From contig CP136069.1 in the NCBI GenBank assembly GCA_032622095.1, forward strand, positions 127,367,450 through 127,431,449: a stretch of 64,000 nucleotides of DNA, written 5' to 3'. A program made the position numbers and the translations under genes. The DNA is from Siphonodentalium dalli. Taxonomy: Eukaryota > Mollusca > Scaphopoda > Gadilida > Siphonodentaliidae. Below the pieces are notes generated by a model that did not search any database, was not told the origin of the DNA, and saw nothing but the letters and a program-made list of their open reading frames with translations. Shown in pieces: positions 2,642 through 36,267 of the stretch. The first letter of the stretch is position 1. Every line of letters begins with the position of its first letter.

Positions 2642-2647
2642 TGCGCA
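2642..2647. repeat. Target site duplication of the Polinton, left (TGCGCA)
   Basis: TGCGCA directly precedes the first base of the left TIR. The same six bases follow the right TIR at 18832-18837. Uninterrupted core repeats nearby read ...CGCATGCGCAGACGAG..., which is the sequence expected for the empty site. Confidence 0.9.
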
Positions 2648-3772
2648 AGAAGAATAGGGGGCTCGTTGGTGTCACATCTAAAAATAGAATTTGTGGGTCT
2701 AAAATTGGTTGTACTAAAATATTCCCAAAATATCAAAAACCCAAAAATTATTTTTCCAAAAAAAAAAATTCAAAACTTCCAAAATTTATTTTTTCCAAAA
2801 AATCCCAAAACTTCCAAAAAATTTCAAAACCCCAAAATTTCAAAAGAAAAAATTTCAAAACCCTCAAAATTATTTCTCTAAAAAAAAAAGTTTAAATAAA
2901 AAATTTATAACGAGTTTTCGGTTTCTGATAATCTCGATATTAAAAAATGTCGAACGTTAAATTATTTGCGTGTAATATCTTTCGTTATTTTTTTTTGTTC
3001 AAATATTTTTCATGAATTTATTAATCGATGTTTAGAAAATAGCTTTATTGGACATTGTGACCATCGATATGAATGCATACATTCCAGTGTTTATCGGACG
3101 CAGTTCATATAATTGTCATACCTGAAAATAGACACCATTACTTTTACATAAATAATAAAGAGCGTTTATTCTTTACACTCTCTCTACCCCAGATGAAGTT
3201 ATTGAGTATATGACAGGTGTGTATTATCGTGAATTATTGGAAGTATTGAGATGTACTATGTTGAATCACTAACGGTCGAAAATTGTAATGTGAAATTACA
3301 ACCCTCCAGAATGAATTGTCATATTCGCTGGAACATATTTTCAAGTAATCACACGCGACATTGGTGGTAACAATGTGTCTTTCACACCTTTGCTTTACCA
3401 AATGAATTATATTATTTCCCCGGTCACAGTTATATGCTATTCAGAAAACATATCGATTTAATGTCTGAACAAACGGGTTAGTATCAATTAAGGTTGATAA
3501 ACTGTGTCATTGTTAGCATTAACACGATAATTAGTTATCCAAAACATGCATACATATTACGTCAGGTCGTGAGACACTCAATTATAGACATTGCTTTGAT
3601 GACATTGTTATAACAACATTACGTAATAACCACTTATCACTCCATTCACACTTACGATCATATACCGAAACTCCAGGTAGCACCGATGATGTAACATTAT
3701 ATCACTGCTATTGTACCAATGATAGGTTCAGACATGTTCGATGTTTAGAAAATACATAATGTGCAGGTGTTC
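2648..3772. repeat. Left TIR of the Polinton
   Basis: About 1.12 kb, nearly identical in reverse complement to 17711-18831. The outermost 250 bp is A/T homopolymer-rich (CCAAAA and TTTTTCC tracts). It contains AATAAAGAGCGTT at 3154-3166. The match ends near GTGCAGGTGTTC. No ORF in it looks like a gene. Confidence 0.92.
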
Positions 3773-4033
3773 ACTTGAAAAGAGATTTTGTACACTCAAT
3801 CACAGACCAACGTGATAATACCAGCCCACACCCAACCCCCAACATCCATCAAACACCTTCACATCACTTACCAAAACCAATGATGTTATAAGAACTGTAG
3901 GTTTTTATAATATTATAGCTTACAGTGTCATCCTGGTAATTCATTTACAACAGCCATAACAAATGTTTACTTATGATGTATATAAGAACTGTATAGCTAC
4001 TAATAAATAGGACACAGTGAACACAAAAAAAAA
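3773..4033 (+). promoter_or_regulatory. Promoter region of the plus-strand gene block, two TATA boxes
   Basis: The 13-base word TATAAGAACTGTA occurs twice, at 3887-3899 and 3981-3993, each preceded by TGATGT. The second is part of TATATAAG (3979-3986), 48 bases before the ATPase ATG. A duplicated TATA box directly upstream of the first gene fits an RNA polymerase II-type promoter. It could be served by host TBP or by the TBP-like protein of this element; the latter is inference. Confidence 0.55.
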
Positions 4034-4699
4034 ATGGGTCCAATTAACCATAGCTCCATACCATTTGAACCTTGTTCTAGTATTTGCATCACCGGACCAA
4101 CTGGTTCTGGTAAGACGAGATGGGTCTACAGATTCCTGCAAAATCTTAATGGAATGTATTCTAGAGATCCACCTAAGAAAATAATGTACTGTTACGGTAT
4201 TTATCAAAATTTCTATGATGAAATTGAATCATCAATCGAAAATTTGGTCATGCATCAAGGATTACCTACCCAAACAGAAATCGAAGAATTTGCTGACGGT
4301 AAACATAATATGTTAATATTAGACGACTTGATGCATCGCATTATTGACCAAAAAGAGATTGAAACACTATTTACGCAGCAAACTCATCATCGCTGTCTTT
4401 CGGTGCTGTTTATTTCACAAAATGTATACGCACAAGGCAAGGCTGCGAGAACTATAGCCTTAAACACAGGATATCTAAATTTATTCAAAAATTTGAGGGA
4501 TGGATCACAAATTTCCACATTGGGTAGACAATTGTATCCCGGTAAATCTAAAGTACTCATTGATGCATACAAGGATTGTATGAAGAAACCATTTGCGTAT
4601 CTTATAATAGATATGTCCCCTCACACTGAGGATAAATACAGGCTACGAACAGACGTGTTTCCTAACCAAGACCCTATAATTTACGTACCTACTAGGTAA
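4034..4699 (+). CDS. Polinton packaging ATPase (FtsK/HerA, A32-like)
   Basis: 221 residues. The Walker A motif GPTGSGKT is at residues 21-28, Walker B MLILDD at 93-98, and a sensor-like LFISQN at 125-130. This is the layout of the DNA-packaging ATPases of Polintons, adintoviruses and poxvirus A32, which pump the genome into the capsid. Its length is usual for the family. The ATG at 4034 is preceded by an A-run and by the TATATAAG box. It is the first of nine closely packed plus-strand ORFs ending with the protease at 9469; no splice sites are needed. Confidence 0.93.
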   Translation: MGPINHSSIPFEPCSSICITGPTGSGKTRWVYRFLQNLNGMYSRDPPKKIMYCYGIYQNFYDEIESSIENLVMHQGLPTQTEIEEFADGKHNMLILDDLMHRIIDQKEIETLFTQQTHHRCLSVLFISQNVYAQGKAARTIALNTGYLNLFKNLRDGSQISTLGRQLYPGKSKVLIDAYKDCMKKPFAYLIIDMSPHTEDKYRLRTDVFPNQDPIIYVPTR

Positions 4700-4739
4700 T
4701 AAGAAGGGGACAGTATCGGAGCTGAGTCGCGACGATAAA

Positions 4740-5063
4740 ATGAGTCGATTATTACGTAATGAGTTGAATTTTGTCAGACTATTGACATCAACCCAATCAA
4801 GATCTCAACGAAACGCATTATTGACATCGATAACTAATAATCAGTTGAAAGTTCTGGTTGAAATTACGATCAATTTACTACATGATAGTTTAACAGTTAC
4901 AGTTCAACAAAAAGCTAAATTACGACGATATAAATCATTTTATATATTCTTGGGTGATAAATCTGTGAGTTTGTTGAGGAAAAGAAAAAGTGTGAATAAT
5001 CACTCAACCGCCATTGCTTTGATGTTGAACATCGTTGAACCTAAATTGAAACAGTTTTTGTGA
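4740..5063 (+). CDS. Small helical Polinton protein upstream of integrase
   Basis: 107 residues, Leu- and Lys-rich and predicted helical. It has the order seen in a small protein common in animal Polintons: an N-terminal stretch with QRNALLTSI, a central EI-x-INLL, then KAKLRRYKSF, and a hydrophobic tail ending in a Leu/Pro-rich segment (EPKLKQFL). Its function is not established to my knowledge. The ORF follows the ATPase by 40 bases, and its TGA overlaps the ATG of the next gene as TGATG. Recognition is by pattern from memory and has not been searched. Confidence 0.65.
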   Translation: MSRLLRNELNFVRLLTSTQSRSQRNALLTSITNNQLKVLVEITINLLHDSLTVTVQQKAKLRRYKSFYIFLGDKSVSLLRKRKSVNNHSTAIALMLNIVEPKLKQFL

Positions 5064-5431
5064 TGGAGTCTGTGAAGAAAACTGTTTTGATCCCGTATGA
5101 AAGATATATGAGGTACACTGAAAAAAGTGAACACAAAAAAGTTTCATCGGAGTCTAACATTGAACACAGCAACATCTCGGCAAACAATAGTAGCCATTCC
5201 GATGAAATGGATAAAGAAAGGGACCCGATGAATAATCAGATTGTTAATACAGTTCAAACGACTGAACCTCAGGATGCAATCCAAAAATCAGAAGTTAACA
5301 CATCGAAAAAGACACATACCAAGCAAAGAAAAAAGAAAATAAGAGGGGTTAAGCGTGAAATATCTAGACCTCCGGGTATAATCGCCGGTAAACTGACCAA
5401 GATAAAGAACAAACGCTGGATATCACTGTGA
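5063..5431 (+). CDS. Small charged Polinton protein
   Basis: 122 residues from the ATG at 5063; a GTG three bases upstream is in frame but less likely. The N-terminus contains TVLIPYERYMRY, the middle is polar and low-complexity (Asn, Ser, Glu), and the C-terminus is basic (KQRKKKIRGVKRE) followed by SRPPGI and a KNKRWISL ending. Proteins with a similar N-terminal VLIPxERY and C-terminal PPGI...W ends sit before integrase in other animal Polintons, as I recall. The basic segment could bind DNA or be a nuclear localisation signal. The role is unknown. Confidence 0.6.
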   Translation: MESVKKTVLIPYERYMRYTEKSEHKKVSSESNIEHSNISANNSSHSDEMDKERDPMNNQIVNTVQTTEPQDAIQKSEVNTSKKTHTKQRKKKIRGVKREISRPPGIIAGKLTKIKNKRWISL

Positions 5432-5436
5432 ACAAT

Positions 5437-6546
5437 ATGGCCGATTGGAAAGATTATTTGAGTTCAATTTATTTTAATCCGGGTCACCCCGCATCGTACT
5501 CAGGAGCTACAAAGTTGCATCAGACTGTAAAATCTGAAAATAAGCACAACATTTCCAAGCGCGAGATTGTGGCGTGGCTACAAAATCATGAAAGTTATTC
5601 CCTGACAAAAAGTGTTAGACGAAAATTCCCGAGGTCTCGTGTTATTGTAAACGCTTCTGACAGTCAATGGGATGGAGACCTCATGGATATGAATGATGTT
5701 TCCAAAGACAACGACAATTACACCTACGTGTTAGTAATGATTGACATTTTTTCTAGGAAGTTATGGTGTGAAGCTATAAAGAGGAAAACTGCAATTAATG
5801 TGATCAATGCTATGAAACATATATTTGAAGGTGGAAGAACCCCGCGCATCCTCCGAACGGATCGCGGTTCGGAGTTCACAAACAAACGGGTCAAAAGTTA
5901 CCTTAAGGGTCTTCATATATCTCAAATTTTTACGCAAAACGAAATGAAAGCCAATTATTCGGAACGGGTCATAAAAACTATAAAGCAGAAGATTTCACGT
6001 TATATGATAAAGCATAATAATGCTAGATATATCGACATTCTACAAGATATTGTGAAAAGTTATAACCATACAATACATCGTTCGTTAGGCACCACCCCTG
6101 ACTCCATAACTGTTGAGAATGAAGATGAGTCTCGTCTCGATCAGTGGTTAATAAGACAGAAGGGAGGTGTTAAAAGTAAATTGAAGAAAAAGTTCAAATA
6201 CAATGTAAATGATATCGTTAGAATATCACACACCAAAGCAGTTTTTGACCGAGAATATTCTCAGAAATGGACTGGAGAGTTGTTCAAAGTGACTAAGAGG
6301 TTTTACAGGCAGAACATACCCTTGTATATATTGACAGATTTCTTGGATGAAAACATTGAGGGTGCTTTCTACGAGTCAGAACTTCAAGGGGTGCGCGTTG
6401 ATGACGAATCAGTTTACAGAATAGATAAAATTGTCAAAAAGAGGACACGAAAGGGTCAAACTGAAGTCCTGGTGCACTGGCATTCATGGCCTGACAAATT
6501 TAATTCATGGATTTTAGAGTCTGATGTCGACAGATATCAAAATTAA
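5437..6546 (+). CDS. Polinton retroviral-type integrase with chromodomain
   Basis: 369 residues from the ATG at 5437, six bases after the stop of the previous gene. The rve catalytic core has the DDE residues D81 (in WDGDLMDM), D142 (in RTDRGSEF) and E176 (in ANYSERVIKT), with a 34-residue D-E spacing. A C-terminal chromodomain (about residues 325-363) contains VLVHWHSWPDKFNSWI. It should catalyse joining of the AG-ended element to host DNA with 6-bp staggered cuts, as the TGCGCA duplication shows. The chromodomain may direct it to modified histones (family knowledge). The full length and intact triad suggest a functional gene. Confidence 0.95.
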   Translation: MADWKDYLSSIYFNPGHPASYSGATKLHQTVKSENKHNISKREIVAWLQNHESYSLTKSVRRKFPRSRVIVNASDSQWDGDLMDMNDVSKDNDNYTYVLVMIDIFSRKLWCEAIKRKTAINVINAMKHIFEGGRTPRILRTDRGSEFTNKRVKSYLKGLHISQIFTQNEMKANYSERVIKTIKQKISRYMIKHNNARYIDILQDIVKSYNHTIHRSLGTTPDSITVENEDESRLDQWLIRQKGGVKSKLKKKFKYNVNDIVRISHTKAVFDREYSQKWTGELFKVTKRFYRQNIPLYILTDFLDENIEGAFYESELQGVRVDDESVYRIDKIVKKRTRKGQTEVLVHWHSWPDKFNSWILESDVDRYQN

Positions 6547-7024
6547 TAAGAGCAAGCTATCCGAGGGGGAAACCATTACAATCATGAATAATAGAACAGA
6601 TACCTTGACGAATATGTTTCAAACAGAACGAGGTCGTCTACATATGAATCTCCTTAAATGGATAGGAATTACTATTATGGTAATAACTCTGTCACTACCG
6701 GTTATATTAGTTCCAAAGAAGATACCACGTCAGACGGGGGACTATGAATTACGTCATACGAATGAGTCACGCCCCCATGATTACGAACAACACCCCTGTG
6801 GGTTCGTGAAAAAGTGGACAATACGATCAAACATTACTGTTACATTATGTAATAATCAAGGGCGCATTTATACACGCATTAGGCGAGTTGTGAATAACAC
6901 TCCCGCGATTATAAGTATTCCGTATAACCAGTGGTCTGCCTTCAAGTATATATTCAGTGATGTTGATAAAACTATAAGAGAAGAGATGAACATTGATTCT
7001 CATTTGAAACAAAATAGAAACTAG
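6524..7024 (+). CDS. Membrane protein of unknown function
   Basis: 166 residues if the ATG at 6524 is used, which overlaps the integrase end by 23 bases. An in-frame ATG at 6584 would avoid the overlap. One clear hydrophobic segment (about residues 42-63, WIGITIMVITLSLPVILV) is followed by KK and a 100-residue polar domain with two Cys (HPCGFV and VTLCNN). This suggests a type II single-pass protein with the C-terminal domain outside the cytosol. I do not recognise the family. Its position between integrase and minor capsid makes a virion or egress role conceivable, but that is inference. Confidence 0.6.
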   Translation: MSTDIKINKSKLSEGETITIMNNRTDTLTNMFQTERGRLHMNLLKWIGITIMVITLSLPVILVPKKIPRQTGDYELRHTNESRPHDYEQHPCGFVKKWTIRSNITVTLCNNQGRIYTRIRRVVNNTPAIISIPYNQWSAFKYIFSDVDKTIREEMNIDSHLKQNRN

Positions 7025-7028
7025 TCAT

Positions 7029-7466
7029 ATGGATAATTATTATCTGTACCTGACTAGCGACGATTCCATAGATAAATATCCAGATAATCGTCCTCTCGAC
7101 TTCACAATAGAGTTACCTGGTGTATTAATATTGGAAGGAGCGTGGTTATGTTGTTTGAAAGACATAAACATAACTGACCATATAGACACGGATTTATTAT
7201 ATATTTGTTCGGACATATGTGGAGAATCAATAGCCTGCGACACATCATCCCCCATCCTCCGGGTTATAAAGAGAGACACACGGGATACGGGTCATTGGCG
7301 GAGTTTTGAGGACTCATTCTACATAAACGTAAGACAGGATAAACTTCAGCGTCTCAGGATTTTTATAAGAGGCGATAAACTTTCTAAAATAAATGCAGAA
7401 AAAAGAGTGACCTGTACACTACATCTGAAGAAACATGTCGATCACGTATATTCCAACCGATATTGA
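7029..7466 (+). CDS. Polinton minor capsid (penton-like) protein
   Basis: 145 residues. The N-terminus reads YYLYLTSDDSIDKYPDNRP, followed by a beta-rich stretch with ELPGVLILEGAWLCCL. Polinton and adintovirus penton homologues begin with a similar F/Y-L-TLPS...YPDN...L...L-G-WEV pattern, a single jelly roll that forms the capsid vertices. The length is at the short end of the family. It starts four bases after the previous stop, and its last 32 bases overlap the next ORF. Assignment rests on the N-terminal pattern and the gene order next to the major capsid gene. Confidence 0.7.
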   Translation: MDNYYLYLTSDDSIDKYPDNRPLDFTIELPGVLILEGAWLCCLKDINITDHIDTDLLYICSDICGESIACDTSSPILRVIKRDTRDTGHWRSFEDSFYINVRQDKLQRLRIFIRGDKLSKINAEKRVTCTLHLKKHVDHVYSNRY

Positions 7467-7764
7467 AAAGTGGAGAAAACATTTCAGGGACATGATTAAT
7501 GGGAAGTTAACGCCAGATAATGAGGGTCGCTACTTTATTGACAAAACTCAAAATAGCGATAGTGAAGAAGAAGACGTTCTAAAACCGCATATTAACGTAG
7601 TGACACCCATAGCGCAAGCGATTGAAATGGCCAAAGCCGAAGTTGCAGAAAATAAGTTGACACAAGCACGTAAGGCGTCCAAAAAACACAATAAGAGGGT
7701 GTTACCTAACGATTTGGCTCATAACCCTAAGAAAGTGAAAACCCCCTTTTTCGATAAACCATGA
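7435..7764 (+). CDS. Small basic protein, possible virion core component
   Basis: 109 residues starting MSITYIPTDIEKWRKHF. An acidic centre (DSEEEDV) is followed by a helix (AQAIEMAKAEVAE) and a basic tail (ARKASKKHNKRVLPN, NPKKVKTPF). Similar small proteins between the penton and major capsid genes of Polintons have been compared with adenovirus core or cement proteins. That comparison is from memory, and I cannot confirm it here. It overlaps the minor capsid gene by 32 bases, and its stop overlaps the capsid start as ATGA. Confidence 0.55.
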   Translation: MSITYIPTDIEKWRKHFRDMINGKLTPDNEGRYFIDKTQNSDSEEEDVLKPHINVVTPIAQAIEMAKAEVAENKLTQARKASKKHNKRVLPNDLAHNPKKVKTPFFDKP

Positions 7765-9023
7765 ATGAATACAGAGAGTACCATACCTCTAAATTGGCAT
7801 TATTTGAATCGCCCGCGGTTGACAGCGGAATACAAGCGACAGAATGGATAAACTACAGACCCGTGAATCAGCTGACAGACACTGCAGCTTTAGAGTTCAA
7901 TATTCCCGCCATGGCCACAACCTACATGGACCTCAAACGGACATTGCTACTTCTCAAACTCAAAATAACCAAGCAAGATGGTTCGGCTCTAACCGTTAAT
8001 GACGATGTGGGTCTGATAAATGCACCCCTACATTCAATATTTTCGCAGGTCGATTTGAATATACAGCAAGTTCCCGTGAGTCAAGTCGGGCCGAATTATC
8101 CATACAAAGCATATTTCGATGTACTCTTAGAAACTGAACGTAAGGAACAGCTACATGGACAAGCGTTCGAAAAGGACACGGCAGGTGGTATGGACCTGGC
8201 AGATTCGAAAAGCGGGAACTCTGGCCTGTATTACAGGTCCAAAACAACCCGTACTAGTCAAATAATGGATATTATGGGATCAATTCAGCTTGACTTCTTC
8301 CAACAGGACAAATTACTACTAAATGGTCTCCCGCTCACGTTAAAATTCTGGCAGACGAGAGATGTTTTTAGACTGATGTATGCGGGAACCACTGAGACAT
8401 ACAAGTTGAAAATACAGGAAGCTAATTTGAGACTAGCCACTGTGAAAGTTACCCCCGGTGTATTACTCAGTCATACTGAGTCACTCAAGAAAAAGAACGC
8501 GTGTTATCCTTTTTCAAAATCTATCATAAAGACGTATACAGTGTCAAAAGGTGCATTCAGTTTGGGAGAAGATAATCTATTTCAAGGAAACGTACCCAGT
8601 AGCTGTATTATTGGCTTAGTATCATCAAAGGCTGAAAGCGGTTCACGCGATAAGAACCCGTTCAACTTTGCGACTTTTGGATGCAACTTCGTCGGATTTT
8701 ACGTCAACGGGCAGTCTATGCCCGCCCAAGCACTCCAACCGAACTTTACCAGTAAGGAATATGTAGAAGCTTACAATACGATAATAAAAGATGCGAAACG
8801 AAAAGCCGTTCATATTACTTATGAGGATTATGCGAAAGGTTATTGCATATATCGGATAAACCCGCAAGGAATTAATCACGACAGGGTCATACCGCACAAA
8901 GGTCACACACGCCTCGAGATTAAATTCTCATCGGCTTTGAAAGACAATTGTACTGTAATCGTTTACGCAAAATTTCCTGCCTTTCTCAAAGTTGACGAGA
9001 GTCGTAAAGTTTGCATTGAATAA
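7761..9023 (+). CDS. Polinton major capsid protein (double jelly roll)
   Basis: 420 residues, beta-rich. The N-terminal part has IQATEWINYRPVNQL, then LINAPLHSIFSQVDLNIQQ, YPYKAYFDVLLET, a KDTAGGMD motif and FFQQDKLLLNG. These match the animal proteins often labelled uncharacterized protein F54H12.2-like, which are the Polinton hexon-like capsid proteins. It would form the icosahedral shell with the minor capsid protein, processed or matured by the protease downstream. The ATG overlaps the previous stop (ATGA) and the TAA overlaps the protease start (TAATG). Full-length and intact. Confidence 0.88.
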   Translation: MNEYREYHTSKLALFESPAVDSGIQATEWINYRPVNQLTDTAALEFNIPAMATTYMDLKRTLLLLKLKITKQDGSALTVNDDVGLINAPLHSIFSQVDLNIQQVPVSQVGPNYPYKAYFDVLLETERKEQLHGQAFEKDTAGGMDLADSKSGNSGLYYRSKTTRTSQIMDIMGSIQLDFFQQDKLLLNGLPLTLKFWQTRDVFRLMYAGTTETYKLKIQEANLRLATVKVTPGVLLSHTESLKKKNACYPFSKSIIKTYTVSKGAFSLGEDNLFQGNVPSSCIIGLVSSKAESGSRDKNPFNFATFGCNFVGFYVNGQSMPAQALQPNFTSKEYVEAYNTIIKDAKRKAVHITYEDYAKGYCIYRINPQGINHDRVIPHKGHTRLEIKFSSALKDNCTVIVYAKFPAFLKVDESRKVCIE

Positions 9024-9469
9024 TGAATACACGCGGACTCATGAGGGCGATAAATAGTTTCACAAACCATAATGAGATAGATGTTTGTCCCATAGACAAA
9101 TTACCTCTTTATATCCAATATCCCCGGATGTATATAGTTAACACAGACGAGAGTAGCCAACCTGGACGCCACTGGATATTGATGACATTCCAGGAACATA
9201 ACGCATCAGAGTTCTTCGACCCTATGGGATTAAAACCCGAGTGTTACAACGGACGATTTAAACACGTGTTGTTATTGAATGGACCCCGTTACGAGTGCAA
9301 TGCTTACAGATTACAGGGTTCTAATATATGCGGTCCCTATTGCATATACTTTGCATTCTATAAACTGTGCGGATACAGTCTAGAAAATATAATGAGACGT
9401 TTCAGTGCCAATAATTATATGTATAATGATTTAATTATTAAGGATTTTATGTTGAAATATATTCTGTAA
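9023..9469 (+). CDS. Polinton adenain-like cysteine protease
   Basis: 148 residues. The catalytic set of C5-type proteases is visible: H50 in GRHWILMTF, D66 in FFDPMGLKP, Q98 in RLQGSN and C103 in NICGPYC. Adenovirus protease matures capsid proteins; Polinton homologues are thought to do the same. It is about 50 residues shorter than adenain, as is usual for Polinton forms. It is the last gene of the plus-strand block, and the first clear polyadenylation signal follows at 9526. Confidence 0.92.
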   Translation: MNTRGLMRAINSFTNHNEIDVCPIDKLPLYIQYPRMYIVNTDESSQPGRHWILMTFQEHNASEFFDPMGLKPECYNGRFKHVLLLNGPRYECNAYRLQGSNICGPYCIYFAFYKLCGYSLENIMRRFSANNYMYNDLIIKDFMLKYIL

Positions 9470-9525
9470 ACGATCTTCATTAGCGACAACGAGAGAAACA
9501 CTCTTTAAATTATATTATGTATATA

Positions 9526-9531
9526 AATAAA
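9526..9531 (+). terminator. Polyadenylation signal AATAAA of the plus-strand block
   Basis: AATAAA occurs 57 bases after the protease stop. Within the nine-gene block I noticed only one other AATAAA, near 7388, so this is a candidate common 3' end for a long transcript. A (TA)n tract and a GGTGGGGTGGGGGG run follow at 9590-9640. Confidence 0.5.
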
Positions 9532-9795
9532 ATATTGTAAATACAATCATTTATCGTTCTTATATTATCATATGTATGACTGGGAAAATATATATATATA
9601 TATATATGTATATGACTGGGTTGAGAGGGTGGGGTGGGGGGTCTGTGGAGAGAGTCCGGTGAGGTGGTATTAGGTCTGTTGTCAAAACAAACAAAAAAAT
9701 CTATTGTTTTTGTTTGTTTCGTCAAAAGCCAAAAAACAAAGGTATGTGAGCCATCCCCCCAAATGAAAAAAATAGATAATCGATACATATATATA
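9532..9795. other. Gap between the convergent protease and TBP-like genes
   Basis: Low-complexity DNA: a (TA)n run at 9589-9608, a G-rich run at 9620-9660, and an inverted pair TTGTTTGTTTCGTC / CAAAACAAACAAA near 9680-9720 that can form a hairpin. I see no gene. Confidence 0.5.
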
Positions 9796-9801
9796 TTTAT
9801 T
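9796..9801 (-). terminator. Polyadenylation signal overlapping the TBP-like stop codon
   Basis: On the minus strand the last codons read GAATAAAT: the stop TAA lies inside AATAAA. This is a very compact 3' end for a minus-strand transcript that converges on the plus-strand block. Confidence 0.45.
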
Positions 9802-10321
9802 CTGAAAGTAATTCAAGTTCACATATGGTAGGATATACAATATTTAACATCTGCTTTTCACTTTTAATGCCCGTAATCACAATTTTTCCATTATGAAAGC
9901 ATGTAAAATGTATTTTCTCACGTCTGAACATTGCCGCAGGGAACAGCTCTAATTCGTAAGAACATTCCATAAGTTTCACTAAAACGTTTAAGTCAAGTTT
10001 TCCATTTAACTGACAAAATGCAGACATTGTCAAAATTTTTATGGAATTTAATCTCACTCGCCAACCACATTTTTGAATATGTCGAGCGTACCGACGCAAT
10101 CGAACTCGTGTCTGTTTGACACTATCAGAACGCCCGTTAACAACGATTTTACCCGTGTTAAACACGAGGCAACATCCACCGAATTTAGAATGTTTCCATA
10201 CAACTCCGCTAAACTTTTTGGAATTGTATTCAATGTTCGAACAGCCGAGTGTCAAATCCCTTAGATTAATAGAACAGTTCAAATCTGCAGAACATACGAC
10301 ATTAGTTATTCGTAGCATCAT
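9797..10321 (-). CDS. TATA-binding-protein homologue encoded by the Polinton
   Basis: 174 residues, the length of a TBP core, in two repeats. Repeat 1 (about 5-85) has LRDLTLGCSNIEYNSKKFSG and CLVFNTGKIVVNG; repeat 2 (about 93-170) has SYELELFPAAMFRR and FHNGKIVITG. These align with TBP segments around YNPKRF, F-x-SGK-x-V-x-TG, YEPELFPG and IFxSGKxVLTGAK. The four Phe that wedge into the TATA box in TBP all have counterparts here: F37, F54, F127 and F142. It should therefore bend DNA at a TATA-like site. It starts 11 bases after the stop of the PC4-like gene on the same strand. No N-terminal extension and no intron. It is much diverged from animal TBP, so recent capture of the host gene is unlikely; that is inference. 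Confidence 0.85.
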   Translation of the reverse strand: MMLRITNVVCSADLNCSINLRDLTLGCSNIEYNSKKFSGVVWKHSKFGGCCLVFNTGKIVVNGRSDSVKQTRVRLRRYARHIQKCGWRVRLNSIKILTMSAFCQLNGKLDLNVLVKLMECSYELELFPAAMFRREKIHFTCFHNGKIVITGIKSEKQMLNIVYPTICELELLSE

Positions 10322-10332
10322 AGGAGTAATGT

Positions 10333-10944
10333 TTAGATCAATGTCTGCATCCGGTTAATCAAACATGTTCTATCGCCGTTGGGGCAGCATTCCATACATC
10401 TTAAAGATCCTTCCTGGTTTTGGTGATCGTCGGTCAAATAGCACTGCACAGTCTGATCAATTTCAGGAATATTAGCACACAGGACGAATATAGCTCCAAC
10501 TAGTTCTTCAAATTGGTCGAATGTCAGAGATATTCCGTATTTGGTTGCACACAAATCATCTGAATGTTCAGGCAGCCAATACCTGCGAATGTCAACACGC
10601 GGGATGCCGCTCTTTATCGTAATGAAGAAATTCCCTCCGATATGACGTCTCATGAATACATCGTCTTCACCGGTACGATAACTGACCACTTCTTGATGTA
10701 TATCTGCTAAGTAAGATTTCAACTCTTTGAATCTCCTTAGATTTAATGTTATTCCAGATTTTGTCGGAAATTTTTGGCCCGCAGAACTTTCACCGCACTC
10801 TCGTATGTGTATATACAGATTTCCCTGGAATCGGCCGTCAAATAGGAAAATGTCATTTCCTAACGGGGCTAAGCATTGTGGATGGAACGCCCTCTCGTTG
10901 GTTTCAGTCCGTTGGTTTCCTTCAACATCGGGTTGATCAGTCAT
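10333..10944 (-). CDS. Protein with two PC4 (transcription coactivator p15)-like domains
   Basis: 203 residues. Repeat 1 (about 32-86) has GRFQGNLYIHIREC and PTKSGITLNLRRFKELKSYL. Repeat 2 (about 96-156) has IPRVDIRRYWLPE and ATKYGISLTFDQFEELV. The PC4 core pattern is vDIReyw...PtkkGIsLt-eqw-Lk, binding single-stranded or melted DNA at promoters; both repeats follow it. A C-terminal Cys cluster (C158, C173, C176, C177, C184) may bind zinc. Two PC4 units in one chain could form the dimer-like surface intramolecularly. It lies upstream of the TBP-like gene on the same strand with an 11-base gap, suggesting co-expression. An acceptor-like TTTTCCAG upstream of the ATG hints at a spliced leader exon. 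Confidence 0.75.
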   Translation of the reverse strand: MTDQPDVEGNQRTETNERAFHPQCLAPLGNDIFLFDGRFQGNLYIHIRECGESSAGQKFPTKSGITLNLRRFKELKSYLADIHQEVVSYRTGEDDVFMRRHIGGNFFITIKSGIPRVDIRRYWLPEHSDDLCATKYGISLTFDQFEELVGAIFVLCANIPEIDQTVQCYLTDDHQNQEGSLRCMECCPNGDRTCLINRMQTLI

Positions 10945-11284
10945 TGTTTTTTATTTTGAACCTGGAAAATAAGAAAACAAAACATTACTTATCAGTTACA
11001 CATCGAGAATACAAAAGTCCGAAAGGAGTCCGCTCATGTGTTTGGTGGATGTTGGGTGTGGGGGGAGGCCCGCCCGCCCGCCCCGTCCGCCCTGGGGAGG
11101 GGAGGCCCGCCCGCCCGCCCGCCCGCCCCGTCCGCCCTGGGGAGGGGAGGCCCGCCCGCCCCGCCCGCCCCCGCCCGCCCCCGTCCGCCCTGGGGAGGGG
11201 AGGCCCGCCCGCCCGCCCGCCGCCGCCCGCCCCGCCCGCATACTCTATAAGAATAAGAAAATTGAGTCATTGAGTCAGTTCATT
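10945..11284. promoter_or_regulatory. Divergent control region between PC4-like and F-box-like genes
   Basis: 340 bases between two head-to-head genes. It holds a GC-rich minisatellite (11056-11240). On the plus strand, TATAAGAATA at 11246-11255 lies 39 bases before the ATG at 11285. The same ten bases occur at 17591-17600 on the far side of polymerase B. The ORFs through the GC-rich part on both strands are repetitive Pro/Arg/Gly artefacts. Confidence 0.5.
11056..11240. repeat. GC-rich minisatellite with G-quadruplex potential
   Basis: About three to four units of roughly 46-50 bp built from CCCGCCCGCC and CGTCCGCCCTGGGGAGGGGA. The minus strand has many G-runs of three or more. It is a sharp GC island in an AT-rich element, exactly in the divergent promoter gap. 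Confidence 0.85.
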
Positions 11285-11917
11285 ATGGAGAGAATACTAC
11301 CCGCAGAAATACTGGAGAAAATATACAATCAGCTAATTGAAATGTCAACTATAAATCCAGAAATAAAAAAACAACTACTACACAATTGGTTTATAAGAGA
11401 AATTAAAATAATACTGAAGAATATAGATGAAGGATATTTTCCTGTACAACGATTGAAATCTTTGATTGCTAGGTCTGAATTTGAAACTGATTTCTTACAA
11501 GATATATTGAATCAAATGTTTTCAAATCGCTGGGTATTTAGAGGCGTTCCTAAAAACAAAATACATGACATTCGTGAACTTGTTGGAGATAACTTTGTGA
11601 GATTTGCAGAATACCGAGACTGGGTTTTCAATCAGAGAAGTTTTGAAGAAGTGACAATAATTCACGGATATATCATTCTCCGTGAACCGTGTACACTGTT
11701 CACGATTGAACAAATACTTAACAGCGGCGTGATTTTGGATTACATTTCTACAAGTAAATCGAAATATATTTCAGAATTAGAGAATGAATTAATCTGGTCA
11801 TTCGGAATAATCTGGAATTATGGTGACTCTTCGTTGAGAAAAAAAACAAAAAAAAACATAGTTGTTTTTGGTTTAAGTATAAACCAAAATGAGATTGTAC
11901 AGGAGGTAAAAATGTAA
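11285..11917 (+). CDS. F-box-like accessory protein of unknown function
   Basis: 210 residues from the ATG at 11285. An upstream in-frame extension through the GC repeat is rejected as low-complexity. The N-terminus LPAEILEKIYNQL resembles the first helix of F-box motifs (LPxEIxxxI), but the rest of an F-box is not clear. The centre is charged and helical (SLIARSEFETDFLQDIL) followed by IRELVGDNFVRFA and GYIILREPCTLFTIE. A homologue, about half identical by eye, is the only gene of element 2 (35684-36220). The basic C-terminus (RKKTKKN) is absent there. Presence in two Polinton-type elements suggests selected cargo, for example interference with a host ubiquitin or defence pathway, but no function can be stated. 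Confidence 0.7.
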   Translation: MERILPAEILEKIYNQLIEMSTINPEIKKQLLHNWFIREIKIILKNIDEGYFPVQRLKSLIARSEFETDFLQDILNQMFSNRWVFRGVPKNKIHDIRELVGDNFVRFAEYRDWVFNQRSFEEVTIIHGYIILREPCTLFTIEQILNSGVILDYISTSKSKYISELENELIWSFGIIWNYGDSSLRKKTKKNIVVFGLSINQNEIVQEVKM

Positions 11918-12226
11918 TGATAGAAAAAAAACAACTAATTCATAACTAACCTGTATAGAATATTTCACACGCACAGTATAGGACTACCGAATTTGTAATT
12001 GTGAACTGGATCGGGTAGCATTTTATAGATCGAAAAAATGGACACCTTGGATAAATTGACCAATGACGGCCATACGTTTATAGTAATACGTGTTCATACA
12101 CGCTCGATGTTATCTAACATCGAACGTGTTTGAACAAGTCTTAGTATAATCCGATAACTACCATCGATCGAATGTTTACACTCTCATTACAACCTTGATC
12201 AAATATAGATGATTAAATTATATATA
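11918..12226. other. Gap between F-box-like gene and polymerase B, possible last polymerase exon
   Basis: No ORF of note. On the minus strand the polymerase reading frame meets a strong donor GAG|GTACGT at about 12232-12233 just before its stop, and no AATAAA follows the stop. An acceptor-like TATACAG lies near 11955 on the minus strand. A short terminal exon here is possible. A 20-bp inverted pair around ACACGCTCGATGTTATCTAACATCGAACGTGT (12099-12130) forms a hairpin. Confidence 0.4.
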
Positions 12227-15067
12227 TTACGTACCTCGTTCAATATCCATATGGCAGTGTATCCATGTTATCCAATCGTCTGCGTTTGGTATAAACAACT
12301 CGGTACTGTTTGTCCTCAGATCTGTTATATATTTTCTTTTTCCTTTCGATCTGCATGTTTTCCTTGGATTGGTTGTGGTGATGGGCACTGTGCTTCCAGA
12401 TTCTAACAGCTCTTTAATCGTCTGGAAATTGATGAACTGTGAATTTTCAAAGTTCAAAGAGAACCCCCGAACTTTACACGTCTCTTTAGCTTTATTTGTT
12501 CGATAAGCGTAATTCTTGGGGCCTCCAGAAACAAATTCTTCGATGTATTCATCAGGATCTAGCTCGCTGGTCAGTTGTCCCAAATAGTCGCCCAGTGGGG
12601 GATTAATTTGATCCTCAGTGCTGCTAAATACACAACTATCCGTGTCGTAATATAATACTCTTCTGTCCAAGGAATGAATAACTTCATATAGCATTAATCG
12701 AGCGTGACACGTCGTGAATGTGGCCAAATATATGTTATTCGCTGCTCCACAAGGCACACAGTCTTTTCGATAGGTCCACTCCATTTGAAGAATGTCATCA
12801 GTTATGACATGAAAATTTTCCATTTGTTTCATTGGATTTGAAATGAGCTGGAATAGATTGTCTTGTTCCGATTCATGGAAATACTCGGTCTGTTTGAAAT
12901 TCTGGTTTTGGCCTAGCTTCCCCCAAAATGAGTTGAGCATGAGCTTACTGATTTGCCTCAGTCCTGGATTCTTTTCGATGCTTTCTCTGTCCAGTAATAT
13001 ACCTTCGTTGTCTTTATACGCTGTGATGTATTTATCCATGTCTTCGTTAGATTTTATCCAATCCGGAGGACCGCTAGCCTGCTGCTTGAACTTTAAGAAT
13101 GTGTTTATATATTCCGTGAATAATCCATTTTGTTGGCTATAGTCTGACGTTTCGGTCCAATGGTATATTTCATATATTTTGAGAATCTTGTATCCCACTT
13201 TGACAGCTGTCTCCAGTTCAGGAATACACCAAACACCGGTAATAGCTCTCTGTTGGCACGTACACGTGCAAGGTCGTTGATTTTCATTATCAGCACAAGT
13301 CCTGCACAGTGGAAACTTCAGTTTACCTTCGGATCGATACGGTAATACGGGGTGATAGAGTCCATTAGGTGGTAAAATCTTGACTTGCGCTATTCCGAAG
13401 TAATCCTTAAGCTCGGTAATGTCATCGCCCAAAATGATTTTCGGGTGTCCAATCGGGTAGCGAGAGTATTTGAGCACACTTGGATACAGCGACGTGAAGT
13501 CAAAATAGTGTATTTTCTCACCAACGGCAGTTTTGTAGTGTAATTTAGTTGCATTCGTTCTGCCGCCGAAGAAACTGTCTCTAGGCTCTAGCCGGTCAAC
13601 AATGTCTAAGCTAGCAATGAAGTCACGAAGCTCCGGATTAGTCTTTCGAGCAGCGACGAACTCGTGTTCCCAAATGCACACATATTTCATACCTCGACTT
13701 TCTATAAACTTCTTCTTTTTCTGTGTGAGTCCGTATAATTCATTAGGTGTCTGGTTGGTTATCGGATTCTTGACTACGTCTCTATCGTGACTCAGACAAA
13801 GTTCACATCCATGGAATTGGCATCCGTGAAATTCGAATGCCGTGTTTAATTCTTCGCAATAGCCATCCAATCTGTACTTTGCATCATCGAGTTTCTTTTC
13901 ACGGCCGTTCAATGCGTGAGTTATGTGAACTTTGTCTTTGAACATCATCCATTCCAGCCATTGAATCGAACTTTTGCTGTATTGATCTTTATATGATGTC
14001 TTGGGGATTCGAGCTATCTGGGATTTGAGAAATTCTTTCTCACGAATTTGGACGCCGCGTTCATCTTCAAGTTTTGTGTCTTGAACCCATTCACCTTTGT
14101 ATAAAATAGACAAAGTTCCATCTTTACATTTAGCAGGAAGCCACGTTTTCCCTTCGGTACTTAGACGCACTCTCCATTCCTCGTCGACGAATTTCGTTCT
14201 GAATATACCCATACATACCGATGCGATTGTAACGTATTGGAATGGATCAACAGCACCAACCAGTTTGAACTTCATATCGCCAGAAAACTCGTCAATTACG
14301 GGTTGTATATTTCCAGTCGCATTCATGATGTGGGTTCTGAATTTTATGCAAGCTTGTCTCAAAATATTGACATCACTACGACAATAATCCGATAATTCTT
14401 TCTTGAAGATGAAAACTGCATTTGTTTGAGCAGCGTGCCATTTCGTGAAGTCTTTTCGTTCAGCCACACTCATATAATCAGCGCCGTAATATTTGGCATC
14501 CGGATAGGGTCCTTCATAATTCTGGTTGGCTGATTTATTGAAAAAGTGCGGGAACCATCCTTTTTTCTCGCCATCCAGACCGAAAGTTTTCGGTAACAGT
14601 GCCAACTTCATTGGTAGAAAGCTGAGACTGTCCAGTACTTTGATATGAAGATCTTTTTCCACGTATAGGTACATCAATTTGGATCCATTATATATAACTT
14701 TGGGTCTCAATGATTGATCAATGAGATATTCCATGAGAAAATATCCATCGTAACCCTTGAAGTTGTGAGCCAGTGCTATGAATCCCTTGTGTTGTTCCGA
14801 GAATAACCATTTTCCAAACTTTTCACCGGTATCAGGACCGCTAAATATAACCTCTCGGAGTCCGCATGTATCCGAACATAAATTTCGGTCACTCTTCTTC
14901 TTCTTCTTCTTCGCATCGCTGTCGATACACGCATCACATAGAGGTCCGCAATTTCTACAGTTCGGTTTCACTTCCAACGATTCATGCATGCATTCGTAGC
15001 AAGCTGTTTGGGCGACGAGGAAGTTCGGTGTATGCTGGACTTTTCCGCACCATGTTTTAAAACAGTT
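12227..15067 (-). CDS. polB: Polinton DNA polymerase B, exon 2 (polymerase and distal exonuclease)
   Basis: Exon 2 of a two-exon gene; it begins after the acceptor TACTTTTCAG and adds 946 residues to the 581 of exon 1 (about 1527 in total). Proofreading motifs Exo II (AHNFKGYDG) and Exo III (DYCRSDVNIL) come first. Next is the endonuclease-like insert typical of Polinton polymerases (HALNGREKKLDD, DGYCEE, FEFHGCQFHGC, CIWEHEF). Then come polymerase motif A (DFTSLYPSV), motif B (KLMLNSFWGKLGQ) and motif C (YYDTDS). It is a family B polymerase of the protein-primed group and should copy the element from its TIR ends. Cys pairs at the start (CRNCGPLC) may bind zinc. The 3' end may be spliced further (donor GAG|GTACGT). 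Confidence 0.92.
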   Translation of the reverse strand, partial: NCFKTWCGKVQHTPNFLVAQTACYECMHESLEVKPNCRNCGPLCDACIDSDAKKKKKKSDRNLCSDTCGLREVIFSGPDTGEKFGKWLFSEQHKGFIALAHNFKGYDGYFLMEYLIDQSLRPKVIYNGSKLMYLYVEKDLHIKVLDSLSFLPMKLALLPKTFGLDGEKKGWFPHFFNKSANQNYEGPYPDAKYYGADYMSVAERKDFTKWHAAQTNAVFIFKKELSDYCRSDVNILRQACIKFRTHIMNATGNIQPVIDEFSGDMKFKLVGAVDPFQYVTIASVCMGIFRTKFVDEEWRVRLSTEGKTWLPAKCKDGTLSILYKGEWVQDTKLEDERGVQIREKEFLKSQIARIPKTSYKDQYSKSSIQWLEWMMFKDKVHITHALNGREKKLDDAKYRLDGYCEELNTAFEFHGCQFHGCELCLSHDRDVVKNPITNQTPNELYGLTQKKKKFIESRGMKYVCIWEHEFVAARKTNPELRDFIASLDIVDRLEPRDSFFGGRTNATKLHYKTAVGEKIHYFDFTSLYPSVLKYSRYPIGHPKIILGDDITELKDYFGIAQVKILPPNGLYHPVLPYRSEGKLKFPLCRTCADNENQRPCTCTCQQRAITGVWCIPELETAVKVGYKILKIYEIYHWTETSDYSQQNGLFTEYINTFLKFKQQASGPPDWIKSNEDMDKYITAYKDNEGILLDRESIEKNPGLRQISKLMLNSFWGKLGQNQNFKQTEYFHESEQDNLFQLISNPMKQMENFHVITDDILQMEWTYRKDCVPCGAANNIYLATFTTCHARLMLYEVIHSLDRRVLYYDTDSCVFSSTEDQINPPLGDYLGQLTSELDPDEYIEEFVSGGPKNYAYRTNKAKETCKVRGFSLNFENSQFINFQTIKELLESGSTVPITTTNPRKTCRSKGKRKYITDLRTNSTELFIPNADDWITWIHCHMDIERGT

Positions 15068-15723
15068 CTGAAAAGTAATAATTGAACGTTTTAACCTCTA
15101 GCTTTATCGATAATAAAAAAACCAAAATAAAACGTCTACACTTTGTTCAGATAATTATTTATAAAAAAAAAATGTTTTGGTATAGGTTCAACGTTAATAA
15201 AGAGCGTTGACGTATTACTATTGTTCGTTGGTTGATCCTAAAAATTACTCGTTCCAATCTACGTGTCAATATTAAAAATGTATATCATGATCCGACCATC
15301 GACATATAGCCTGTATAATTGTCGATTCAAGCACGCAGCTATCAAGTTCAATAAAGTTAAAACAATTATATATTACGTTAGTTTACTATATAACAATTAC
15401 AAATCTCTTTTCACAAAAAAATATGTTACACATTTTCAATGTGTCAAGAATTAAAAAAGTTAATTACTCGATTTAACATCTGTGACTCAGTTGAATTTTA
15501 ATATTGGGACCCCTTAACTTTGGTCGAATTCAAGTATGTTATTGTTATATGGTAACCGCACACGCGAGGTAACAGCTAAAGAGCGTTCAGCGATAATCTA
15601 ATATAATTTAAAAAAATGCAAGAGCGTCTCTACTTATGCGCGCCTTTAATAAAGAGCGTTACGTTATCGTGATTTCGACTGTAATGTGTTACATATATAT
15701 ACTACAATTAGGTTAAGACTCAC
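15068..15723 (-). other. 656-bp phase-0 intron of polymerase B
   Basis: On the minus strand the donor is CAG|GTGAGT (exon end at 15724) and the acceptor TTTTCAG|AAC (exon start at 15067). Joining them keeps the frame and removes stops: ...CAKCQ joined to NCFKTWCGK. The intron carries three copies of the dispersed word, at 15196-15208, 15576-15587 (CTAAAGAGCGTT) and 15648-15660, all in the plus orientation, i.e. antisense to the gene. Confidence 0.85.
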
Positions 15724-17466
15724 CTGACACTTAGCACATTTCTTGCATATATGATCCTCTTTACAGTCCTGGCAATCCTTTGTATGTAAGGGTGAATATC
15801 CTTCGGAACATTCCAATATATCGTGTTGAATGGTTTCGAAGTCGAAGAAACAGAATTTAGCTTTTTCATCATCAGTAACGGGAGGTATGGCCCTTACATA
15901 GCATTCGTGTGCTCCCATTGTGTATTTGTCACACGATCTACAAAATGTTTCTCCGCACACATGTTGATTCGGACGTCTTTTCCCTCTCTCCATGACTTTT
16001 GTACAGTCCAAGCATTTCCACCATTTTTGACAAGGAGCTGTCGTTTCTCCCGAAGCTTGATTAATAGGTTTTGCTTTATGACGCACGAAACATTGATGAG
16101 ACATACACGTCATATTACAATCTGAACAATGTTCTTTGTTTTCACTTTGTTCACATTTATCACTTTTACACACGAAACAGGTGTGTTCACAATAATGCTT
16201 TCCTTTGGTTGAATAATGTTTTAAACAATGCACACAGAAATATGCTGCGCTAAAGAATCCCGTTATGGATTGTATAGCGTGGAAATGTTCATTAGCAGTG
16301 AGATATAAATATATCACGGGTCTTTCTATACCGTCTGTAGGCGCACTGGTAATGAATTTATTACCCAGTCTAGCACTGACGACTAGTATTGTCAAATTCA
16401 GAGTTTCCTCGAATGCTTTTAGATCTGCTAAACTGGATGGTCTGTCTGTTGATACACCTGCGATGACACTAATTGCTTTGGCTAATTTTCCTTGTTCAGT
16501 ACGTTTTTTGTGCTGCACATTTTTGTAATAATTGATCGGTACTTTTCTGTATTCCATGATGAGTTGTAAATTATTTCTGGTTCCTCTATTCTGTGTTATT
16601 TCTAGCCATTCATCAGGACTGCAAATATTTAATTTACACCAACATGTGGCGATAGCCCGAGCCATACACATATTGTCGGTATTTTCAATCGTAACGATCG
16701 ATGTTTTATTTCTTAGATTGTCACTTTCATCATGTAAAGCCGTTATCTTCCTCCGTGCTCCGCCTTTAGGTAACTCGATGGTGCCTATATCTATGCGGAA
16801 ACTTTGATTAACAGTCAGTGTTTGGTTGCTGTTCAAAACGAGTTCGATTCTGTCAATCACAGTGTTAGCATTTAACGTTTGCAACGTTTGTAACGGAACT
16901 ACTATAGGGTTGTCCAAACTCTCATTGTGAATGATAACTCTGCCAAGATCATTGTCAGCCAAATTTCCACGAGCTCTTTGAATAGTGTCCTCGAACATTG
17001 AATGTAGATTCCTGTATATGTCGATTAACTTTTTCTCTTTGTAAATTTCATCTAATTTGATCTCATATGTTCTCTGTGTTGCCAAATTGTTTCCGAAGGT
17101 TCGTTCACTCCTTTTGCGAATGCTATATCCGGTTATTTGAATATCAGAACTGTCGGCTGTTTGATTGTCTGATTTTACGGCTTCATCTTGATGAGGTGTC
17201 TGTTCGTCTTCTCGGTTTTGTAATCCTGATGGTCCAGCTGTACCGGGTTGTGAGTTGTTAACATCATTTTTAGGCGCATCATGTTCTCCGTATCCGATTT
17301 GGTTCGGCCATGGGTCATCTCCTGAACAAAGCGTAGATGCTTCAATAATATCTTCATCCAGTTGATAAGCTACGATAGCCTTGTCGTATTCTTCGATGTC
17401 TTGCAGAATACATTCTATTTCATAAATTTCATCCACTGTCAGAGGTGTCATTATTTCTTCAGCCAT
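15724..17466 (-). CDS. polB: Polinton DNA polymerase B, exon 1 (N-terminal and Exo I)
   Basis: 581 residues from the ATG at 17466. The acidic, polar N-terminus (about 1-120) is low-complexity. Residues 120-400 are the conserved but uncharacterised N-terminal region of Polinton polymerases. A Cys/His-rich stretch (about 400-525, several CxxC pairs such as CVHCLKHY, CFVCKSDKC, CSDCNMTC) may form zinc fingers. Exo I (FFDFETIQHD, D542 and E544) is near the end. The exon ends in a further Cys cluster (CQDCKEDHICKKCAKC) that continues into exon 2. Reading past the donor gives a short false C-terminus. Confidence 0.9.
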
Positions 17467-17710
17467 TTTTCGAGAAGTCCTGAGTAGTGATTACAACGGC
17501 GTCTATTCACTATATGGAATACAGCTTAGTCATATATATTTTTATACCATAAAATCCCGAACATATGCAAGCACGGATGACGTAACATTATATAAGAATA
17601 TATATATGAACGTAATGTATGAATAGGCCGATAATTGGTTTTGTACGGACGAGGCAACATTAGTTGTTTAACTGGTTATTATTACGTAACCCTGTGTTCC
17701 CCCCCGCTGA
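17467..17710 (-). promoter_or_regulatory. Upstream region of polymerase B
   Basis: 244 bases between the polymerase ATG and the right TIR. On the minus strand a TATAAAAATATATA stretch lies at about 17536-17549, some 75 bases upstream of the ATG. TTATATAAGAATA at 17588-17600 contains the palindrome TTATATAA and the TATAAGAATA word shared with the promoter of the F-box-like gene, but in the opposite orientation to polymerase. Confidence 0.4.
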
Positions 17711-18831
17711 GAACACCTGCAGATTATCTATTTTTCTAAACATCGAACTTGTCTGAACCTATCATTGGTACAATAGCAGTGATATAATGTTACATCATCG
17801 GTGCTACCTGGAGTTTTCGGCATACAAAATGGTCGTAAGTGTGAATGGAGTGATAAGTGGTTATTACGTAATGTTGTTATAACAATGTCATCAAAGCAAT
17901 GTCTATAATTGAGTGTATCACGACCTGACGTAATATGTATGCATGTTTTGGATAACTAATTATCGTGTTAATGCTAACAATGACACAGTTTATCAACCTT
18001 AATTGATACTAACCCGTTTGTTCAGACATTAAATCGATATGTTTTCTGAATAGCATATAACTGTGACCGGGGAAATAATATAATTCATTTGGTAAAGCAA
18101 AGGTGTGAAAGACACATTGTTACCACCAATGTCGCGTGTGATTACTTGAAAATATGTTCCAGCGAATATGACAATTCATTCTGGAGGGTTGTAATTTCAC
18201 ATTACAATTTTCGACCGTTAGTGATTCAACATAGTACATCTCAATACTTCCAATAATTCACGATAATACACACCTGTCATATACTCAATCTGGGGTAGAG
18301 AGAGTGTAAAGAATAAACGCTCTTTATTATTTATGTAAAAGTAATGGTGTCTATTTTCAGGTATGACAATTATATGAACTGCGTCCGATAAACACTGGAA
18401 TGTATGCATTCATACCGATGGTCACAATGTCCAATAAAGCTATTTCTAAACATCGATTAATAATTTCATGAAAAATATTTGAACAAAAAAAAATAACGAA
18501 AGATATTACACGCAAATAATTTAACATTCGACATTTTTTAATATCGAGATTATCAGAAACCGAAAACTCGTTATAAATTTTTTATTTAAACTTTTTTTTT
18601 TAGAGAAATAATTTTGAGGGTTTTGAAATTTTTTCTTTTGAAATTTTGTGGTTTTAAAATTTTTGGAAGTTTTGAAATTTTTTGTAAAAAATAAATTTTG
18701 GAAGTTTTGAATTTTTTTTTTGGAAAAATAATTTTTGGGTTTTTGATATTTTGGGAATATTTTAGTACAACCAATTTTAGACCCACAAATTCTATTTTTA
18801 GATGTGACACCAACGAGCCCCCTATTCTTCT
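17711..18831. repeat. Right TIR of the Polinton
   Basis: Reverse complement of 2648-3772 with few differences, such as small indels in the homopolymer-rich outer part. It carries AACGCTCTTTATT at 18316-18328, the mirror of the left copy of the dispersed word. It ends ...CCCTATTCTTCT. Confidence 0.92.
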
Positions 18832-18837
18832 TGCGCA
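18832..18837. repeat. Target site duplication of the Polinton, right (TGCGCA)
   Basis: Identical to 2642-2647 and directly follows the last base of the right TIR. Helitron core repeat sequence (GACGAGAT) continues immediately. Confidence 0.9.
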
Positions 18838-20263: not shown

Positions 20264-20990
20264 TCTCTTATATATTTTGAAGACCTCTGTCTGTCTGTCT
20301 GTCTGTATGTCCTTTATAGAATTGAAAACGGCTGGCTCGATTGAGTTCAAACTTCATATCTAAGGGTAAAATCCCACGGACACCGTCGGCGTCGCGTTTT
20401 GGAGAAGCTCAGACCACCCGTTCTCCACTCTCAGTCACAAAAACGTTAATCAAGTGATAATTTAATGAGCGTTTGTTTTTGACGCATCGCTATAAAGAGC
20501 GTTTGTTTACCATTCAATCTCAGTCACAAAAAACGGCACTGCGGTGGTTAATCAAGTGATAATTTAATGAGCGTTTGTTTTTAACGCATCGCTATAAAGA
20601 GCGTTTGTTTACCATTCAACGTTATTAGCATCTGCAGAGAGATATACGGGAGCATCTAATATATAGAAACGGGTGGAGCTATCGACTTAAAATTTGGTTT
20701 GTGAATGTATCTTGCCCCGGATACGAATTTTATCGGGTCGCCGAGCCCGTGCGACGCCAGGTTCGCGCATGCGCAGACGAGATCTCGGAAACGGTCGGAA
20801 ACGGGTGGAGCTATCGACTTGAAATTTGGTATGTGAATGTATCTTGCCCCGGATACGAATTTTATCGGGTCGCCGAGCCCGTGCGACGCCAGCTTCGCGC
20901 ATGCGCAGACCAGATCTCGGAAACGGGTGGAGCTATCGACTTGAAATTTGGTTTTTGAATAGCCCGGACAACATCGGGCTCATCGGCTAG
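20264..20990 (+). mobile_element. Non-autonomous Helitron copy, head to tail with the previous one
   Basis: It begins TCTCTTATATATTTTGAAG directly after the CTAG of the previous copy and ends with the hairpin AGCCCG...CGGGCT and CTAG at 20987-20990, followed by T. It contains a tandem duplication with TATAAAGAGCGTT at 20491-20503 and 20593-20605, then two core repeats. Confidence 0.65.
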
Positions 20991-28496: not shown

Positions 28497-28502
28497 AACG
28501 CA
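28497..28502. repeat. Target site duplication of element 2, left (AACGCA)
   Basis: AACGCA directly precedes AGTAGTATACGGG. The same six bases follow the right end at 41234-41239. Removing the element and one copy restores the LINE frame (...GSCVWDHAP). Confidence 0.85.
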
Positions 28503-28676
28503 AGTAGTATACGGGACGCTATCTGGTCAATTCTATCGATTTTTGCCCCCCCTTTGTTTCACCATTTTGAGGGGCCAATGGTAGGGGTTTATTAGGGGTC
28601 CTTATTGTATGAAAGCCCCTCCTTTTCCTTCTCACTTATATGATAAGTAGAATTAATTAATGAAGCCACTCCTTTT
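28503..28676 (+). repeat. Terminal stub of the left TIR of element 2
   Basis: About 174 bp that match the ends at 29794 and (inverted) 41233, including GGGGCCAATGGTAGGGGTTT. The match stops inside CTCCTTTTCCT, where an inverted copy of host intron DNA begins. The true left TIR start and its target duplication are kept here. Confidence 0.75.
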
Positions 28677-29529: not shown

Positions 29530-29567
29530 CTGGAACGCACACAATCATCAGGCAACCGCACCGCGGA

Positions 29568-36220: not shown

Positions 36221-36267
36221 CTCAGTGATCACTGACGAGTACCACTTACAACCGTAGGCATCGCTTA
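36221..36267. other. Short spacer after the F-box-like gene
   Basis: 47 bases between the stop codon and the start of the right TIR match. No AATAAA is in it; the first AATAAA-like signal (AATAATAAAG) comes about 135 bases after the stop, inside the TIR. Confidence 0.4.

Follow-up and report, generated by a model that had tools for sequence, protein, structure and literature searches.

A Polinton carrying a TATA-binding protein homologue and a tandem PC4 protein, possibly part of its own transcription-start machinery

The window analyzed here, a 64-kb stretch of DNA, contains a complete Polinton at positions 2648-18831 (16,184 bp), which begins with AG and ends with CT. The element lies between exact copies of a 6-bp target-site duplication, and its terminal inverted repeats (TIRs; 1105 bp on the left and 1100 bp on the right) are 97.4% identical. 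Its features are as follows:

2642..2647, left target-site duplication TGCGCA
2648..3752, left TIR, about 1.1 kb
3979..3986, plus strand, TATA box TATATAAG, 55 bp ahead of the start codon of the first plus-strand gene
4034..4699, plus strand, P-loop ATPase, assigned to the packaging type from its position (Pfam matches weak and below cut-off)
5428..6546, plus strand, integrase, rve core and chromodomain (Pfam)
7761..9023, plus strand, candidate capsid, 420 aa (by size and place only)
9023..9469, plus strand, adenovirus-type protease (PF00770, just below cut-off)
9797..10321, minus strand, TATA-binding protein (TBP), two lobes, four intercalating Phe (Pfam, PDB phmmer, alignment, structure model)
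10333..10944, minus strand, tandem PC4 protein, 203 aa (Pfam, PDB)
10945..11291, minus strand, upstream region of PC4-TBP, no TATAWAWR, GC boxes in tandem repeats
11036..11917, plus strand, ORF without assigned function
12227..17466, minus strand, PolB region, two open stretches at 12227-14989 and 15664-17466 (Pfam PF03175)
17539..17546, minus strand, TATA box TATAAAAA, 80 bp ahead of the PolB start codon
17732..18831, right TIR
18832..18837, right target-site duplication TGCGCA

The integrase (rve PF00665 and chromodomain PF00385) and PolB (PF03175, protein-primed type) scored above the Pfam cut-offs, while the protease fell just below (20.4 bits versus 21.3, E 4.4e-4). Together with the long TIRs and the 6-bp duplication, the integrase and PolB identify the element as a Polinton. 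The two open stretches of the PolB gene are separated by canonical GT-AG sites (15723..15068). The 420-aa ORF had no Pfam, NCBIfam, or PDB match and a single PHROG match at E 0.2. The ORF at 11036-11917 probably starts later than annotated because its first part crosses the GC repeats. The plus-strand genes between 4034 and 9469 are tightly packed, overlapping or separated by no more than 40 bp, which is unusual for a spliced animal host. The insertion target is a satellite (338-625, 2251-2647, and 20666-20926) whose units are about 122-132 bp long. When the flanks were joined minus one duplication, the resulting empty site aligned gaplessly over 130 bp to four of the satellite units in the window flanks (94.6-96.9% identity); other units matched with gaps or in part.

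The minus-strand ORF at 9797-10321 runs from ATG to stop and encodes 174 amino acids. The initial annotation had proposed that it is a TBP homologue with a two-repeat layout that keeps counterparts of all four DNA-intercalating phenylalanines, and our results bear this out. In a profile search, Pfam TBP (PF00352) matched the ORF with E 2.9e-32 in two stretches that correspond to both repeats. With phmmer against PDB sequences, the best match was Encephalitozoon TBP (E 1.1e-24), followed closely by human TBP (about 1e-23), while archaeal TBPs matched more weakly (E 1e-16 to 1e-13, best 8e-17). The four canonical intercalating phenylalanines, which are invariant in a 34-row TBP alignment, correspond to F37, F54, F127, and F142 of the encoded protein. 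That alignment, consisting of the Polinton protein together with archaeal and viral-contig TBPs, also served as input for a structure model, which adopts the saddle fold with a pLDDT of 93.8. The 44 PDB chains ranked best against this model are all TBPs or TBP fusions, with a TM score of 0.92 to human 1cdw and up to 0.93 overall. Since the model was built on an alignment of TBPs, the fold does not provide evidence separate from the homology; a model from the single sequence had a pLDDT of 29. Together, these sequence comparisons confirm the ORF as the gene for a predicted two-lobe TBP, with homology far beyond chance.

Directly upstream, on the same strand and 11 bp from the TBP gene, lies a 203-aa ORF that matches PC4 in Pfam (PF02229, E 4.5e-15) and has PC4 as its best PDB match (E 0.0021). 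Scored singly, both halves exceed the Pfam cut-off of 25 bits, the first with 32.9 bits and the second, by a margin of 0.3 bit, with 25.3 bits. PC4 is known as a dimer, and thus the tandem protein may be a single-chain dimer.

The TBP gene is present in at least 150 copies in the 2.23-Gb genome (9 contigs), which are 97-100% identical and include the window copy. Because the best 150 of 453 candidates were scored, the copy number is a minimum and the share of intact copies a maximum; all of the best 150 cover residues 1-174, and 148 of them are free of stop codons. We fetched 53 loci, corresponding to 48 distinct copies, one of which has a stop in TBP. The four intercalating phenylalanines as well as R76, R80, K84, and E125 are unchanged in all 48 copies, E123 is kept in 47 and replaced by aspartate once, and R77Q occurs once. 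T98 is likewise found in all 48 copies and N62 in 47, with a serine in the remaining one. Pairwise comparison of distinct haplotypes gave a pN/pS for TBP of 0.278 over all pairs and 0.224 for pairs at least 3% apart. Thus, TBP is under constraint across many copies.

The linkage between the two genes is also maintained, as each of the 48 distinct copies has PC4 or its remains next to TBP. A gapless placement of PC4 was possible in 41 of them, where it always lies 9-11 bp upstream of TBP in the same orientation; in the other seven it is frameshifted, partial, or broken. Stops interrupt PC4 in 4 of the 41 gaplessly placed copies, so that PC4 is less well kept than TBP, in copies that were themselves chosen through an intact TBP. 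The pN/pS of PC4, calculated in the same way, is 0.252. At one locus (L112, G000:C7:21496372), the open frame over TBP extends to 383 aa, as compared to 185, with PC4 residues 1-200 upstream in the same frame, which amounts to a naturally occurring fusion frame of PC4 and TBP.

Alternatively, the element might have picked up a recent, functionless retrocopy of the host TBP, which would account for the lack of introns in the Polinton gene and for the eukaryotic TBPs being its closest neighbors in the tree. The host TBP is a spliced gene on C6, whose exons, located singly, are 61-89% identical to yeast TBP, while the Polinton TBP shares 31% identity with the host protein. Judging by this TBP, the host is probably an animal. 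In a 31-row tree, the Polinton pair grouped with eukaryotic TBPs, TBPL1, and three viral-contig TBPs with a support of 89/94, which is not decisive; its branch is 1.9 changes per column long. In AU tests with 30 rows, the p values were 0.036 for grouping with host TBP, 0.058 with the three viral-contig TBPs, 0.129 for a position inside the TBP group, and 0.225 with TBPL1, the TBPL1 row in tree and tests being a provisional sequence. The 31% identity to a spliced host gene and the AU result thus disfavor a recent host copy, an outcome that the initial annotation had named as refuting its proposal, and the pN/pS of 0.22-0.28 also speaks against a functionless gene. We regard this origin as very improbable. 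An archaeal-type TBP is disfavored as well: the archaeal proteins carry E.EQF in 79 of 80 cases where the Polinton TBP has ELELF, and none of the 80 contains [RK]YAR. Scans of viral contigs by TBP, the 420-aa ORF, PolB, a PolB motif, and integrase yielded no relative recognized as a Polinton, and the one contig examined in full among 11 TBP-bearing viral contigs (L008) reads as haloarchaeal. The sequence comparisons favor an old capture of a eukaryote-type TBP.

We next consider the promoter regions, for which 20 copies, mostly picked for divergence, were inspected. The TATA box TATATAAG before the capsid cluster is identical in all 14 readable copies; it lies inside the longest invariant run (46 bp) of an upstream region in which 14% of columns vary. 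Upstream of PolB, 30% of columns vary, and the box is located outside any long invariant run. Among 13 readable copies, four have TATAAAAA, five TATATAAA, three TATACAAA, and one TATCAAAA, so that the box is canonical in nine and not canonical in four. The region before PC4-TBP differs, as in the window copy it has no TATAWAWR and holds 23 GGGCGG boxes (counted with overlaps). In the 35 of 48 copies that could be scored, 9-47 GC boxes precede PC4, and TATAWAWR is present within the last 200 bp in none. Because TATA-like words also occur elsewhere in the AT-rich Polinton, the presence of a TATA box alone is weak evidence, and it is place and conservation that carry the argument. The conserved boxes thus give circumstantial support to the earlier suggestion that an element-encoded TBP defines its own promoters. 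A second candidate motif, the 13-bp AACGCTCTTTATT, was found with up to two mismatches at 24 places versus 2.5 expected (for example, 3154-3166, 15648-15660, 32016-32028, and 58100-58112). Its sites fall in the Polinton TIRs, the PolB gap, a palindrome, and the host flanks, and it was rejected as an element-specific promoter motif because of its presence in host flanks.

We compared the protein with the viral TBPs of PMC7221094. According to that article, viral TBPs keep the DNA-binding positions and have lost two TFIIB-contacting acidic residues as well as the basic patch found on the N lobe of eukaryotic TBPs; almost all such viruses carry a TFIIB-like gene. The Polinton TBP keeps the acidic pair, E123 and E125 (within YELELF). 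In its RRYARHIQK stretch, R76, R80, and K84 correspond to three of the four basic positions in our own matching by spacing. The motif [RK]YAR was found in none of 80 archaeal and none of 11 viral-contig TBPs (a looser form in one of the 11), and E.ELF in none of the archaeal and one of the viral-contig proteins. Furthermore, no TFIIB match was detected by Pfam among the 14 Polinton ORFs scanned (at least 100 aa). The retained acidic pair and basic residues and the lack of a TFIIB match thus point to the use of host TFIIB by the Polinton TBP.

The same surfaces would also suit a decoy, that is, a TBP that, rather than driving element promoters, sequesters TFIIB, TFIIA, Mot1, or TAF1 of the host and weakens or redirects the host's transcription or silencing. 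What is kept, E123/E125 and the three basic helix-2 residues, are host-facing surfaces as described in PMC7221094. However, a pure decoy would have no need for the four intercalating phenylalanines found in 48 of 48 copies, and a conserved TATA box precedes the capsid cluster. We therefore consider a decoy unlikely.

On the DNA-binding side, the Polinton protein has T98 in place of a near-invariant asparagine of TBPs and N62 in place of a common threonine, two positions that we take to be DNA-contacting. Thus, its DNA preference may differ from that of the host TBP, which argues against a plain copy of host specificity.

We think it reasonably probable that the TBP/PC4 pair brings host TFIIB and Pol II to promoters of the element itself. 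Host Pol II and host factors would first transcribe the PC4-TBP pair from its TATA-less GC-box promoter. The element TBP would then bind and bend the TATA boxes of the plus-strand capsid cluster and PolB, E123 and E125 of its C lobe would recruit host TFIIB and Pol II, and PC4 might help to assemble or open the transcription complex. In its full form, the proposal is of a transposon-encoded general-transcription-factor module, in which a TBP with the host-docking surfaces that most viral TBPs have lost and a single-chain PC4 dimer are made first from the GC-box promoter and then activate the element's TATA promoters; we put this forward as a tentative model. From the binding of PC4 to single-stranded DNA and the participation of TBP in transcription by each of the three RNA polymerases, one could instead propose that the two proteins serve element replication, integration-site choice, or Pol III transcription. 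The location of the window copy in a satellite leaves target choice at least open. The TATA boxes upstream of the capsid cluster and PolB, however, are spaced from these genes as is typical of promoters, and we judge a role away from Pol II promoters to be quite unlikely.

Elsewhere in the window, a giant palindrome spans about 28000-43000, with arms at 30000-34524 and 36268-41027 that are mostly 94-99% complementary and a 1.7-kb center; similar ORFs suggest that it extends further outward. An ORF in its center (35678-36220, plus strand) is at the DNA level 69% identical to part of the Polinton ORF at 11036-11917. The palindrome may be real or an assembly fault. Long ORFs at 52916-55510 resemble, by eye, a LINE-type reverse transcriptase.

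Polintons are commonly placed close to the origin of several groups of eukaryotic DNA viruses. The element described here may bring part of its own transcription-start machinery, and a Polinton equipped with these two genes would demonstrate that a small mobile element is able to supply its own promoter-recognition factor. If the model is true, a 16-kb Polinton would contain a programme of gene expression in two stages that resembles the one in large DNA viruses. The protein would also represent a natural TBP that, at 31% identity to its host counterpart, apparently still fits host TFIIB. How the element keeps its promoters apart from those of the host, and a possible passage of large-virus transcription factors through such elements, thereby become testable.

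The element shares TIRs, the 6-bp duplication, integrase, PolB, and, by matches below the Pfam cut-offs, a candidate protease and ATPase with Polinton/Maverick elements and differs from them in the addition of TBP and a tandem PC4. To our knowledge, both genes are absent from known Polinton gene lists. In the open-access papers searched, we found no report of a Polinton/Maverick TBP, nor of a Polinton with PC4. The main text of a study on integrated viruses of protists (PMC10120064) contains none of the terms TATA, TBP, PC4, or transcription factor. A Polinton TBP is thus likely to be new to the literature.

In common with eukaryotic TBP and TBPL1 (TRF2), the Polinton protein has the two-lobe saddle, the four phenylalanines (as in TBP), the YE-x-ELF motif, and the helix-2 RYAR..QK motif. 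In contrast to them, it is encoded by a mobile element, is 31-35% identical, and lacks an N-terminal extension; most TBPs, moreover, carry asparagine and threonine where it has T98 and N62. A virus-encoded TBP is also known from giant viruses, mirusviruses, and archaeal viruses. TBP is reported in 59% of mirusvirus genomes (PMC10132985), CpV-BQ1 has a TBP and two TFIIBs and uses the host polymerase (PMC12085832), and Megavirus encodes its own TBP (PMC11464507). Haloarcula virus HJTV-2 likewise encodes a TBP. The best structural match among the viral models reached a TM score of 0.81 at 23% identity to the Polinton TBP. KSHV ORF24 is another viral TBP-like protein, which, according to PMC12529657, steers host Pol II to viral late promoters. 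ORF24 is large, with one additional domain, and its model is described in a section heading of the article as incompatible with direct TFIIB binding, whereas the Polinton protein is a bare TBP core in which the TFIIB residues are kept. Similarly, the viral TBPs in PMC7221094 mostly come with a viral TFIIB and have lost both the acidic pair and the basic patch, while the Polinton TBP, with no TFIIB found beside it, keeps the acidic pair and the basic residues of helix 2.
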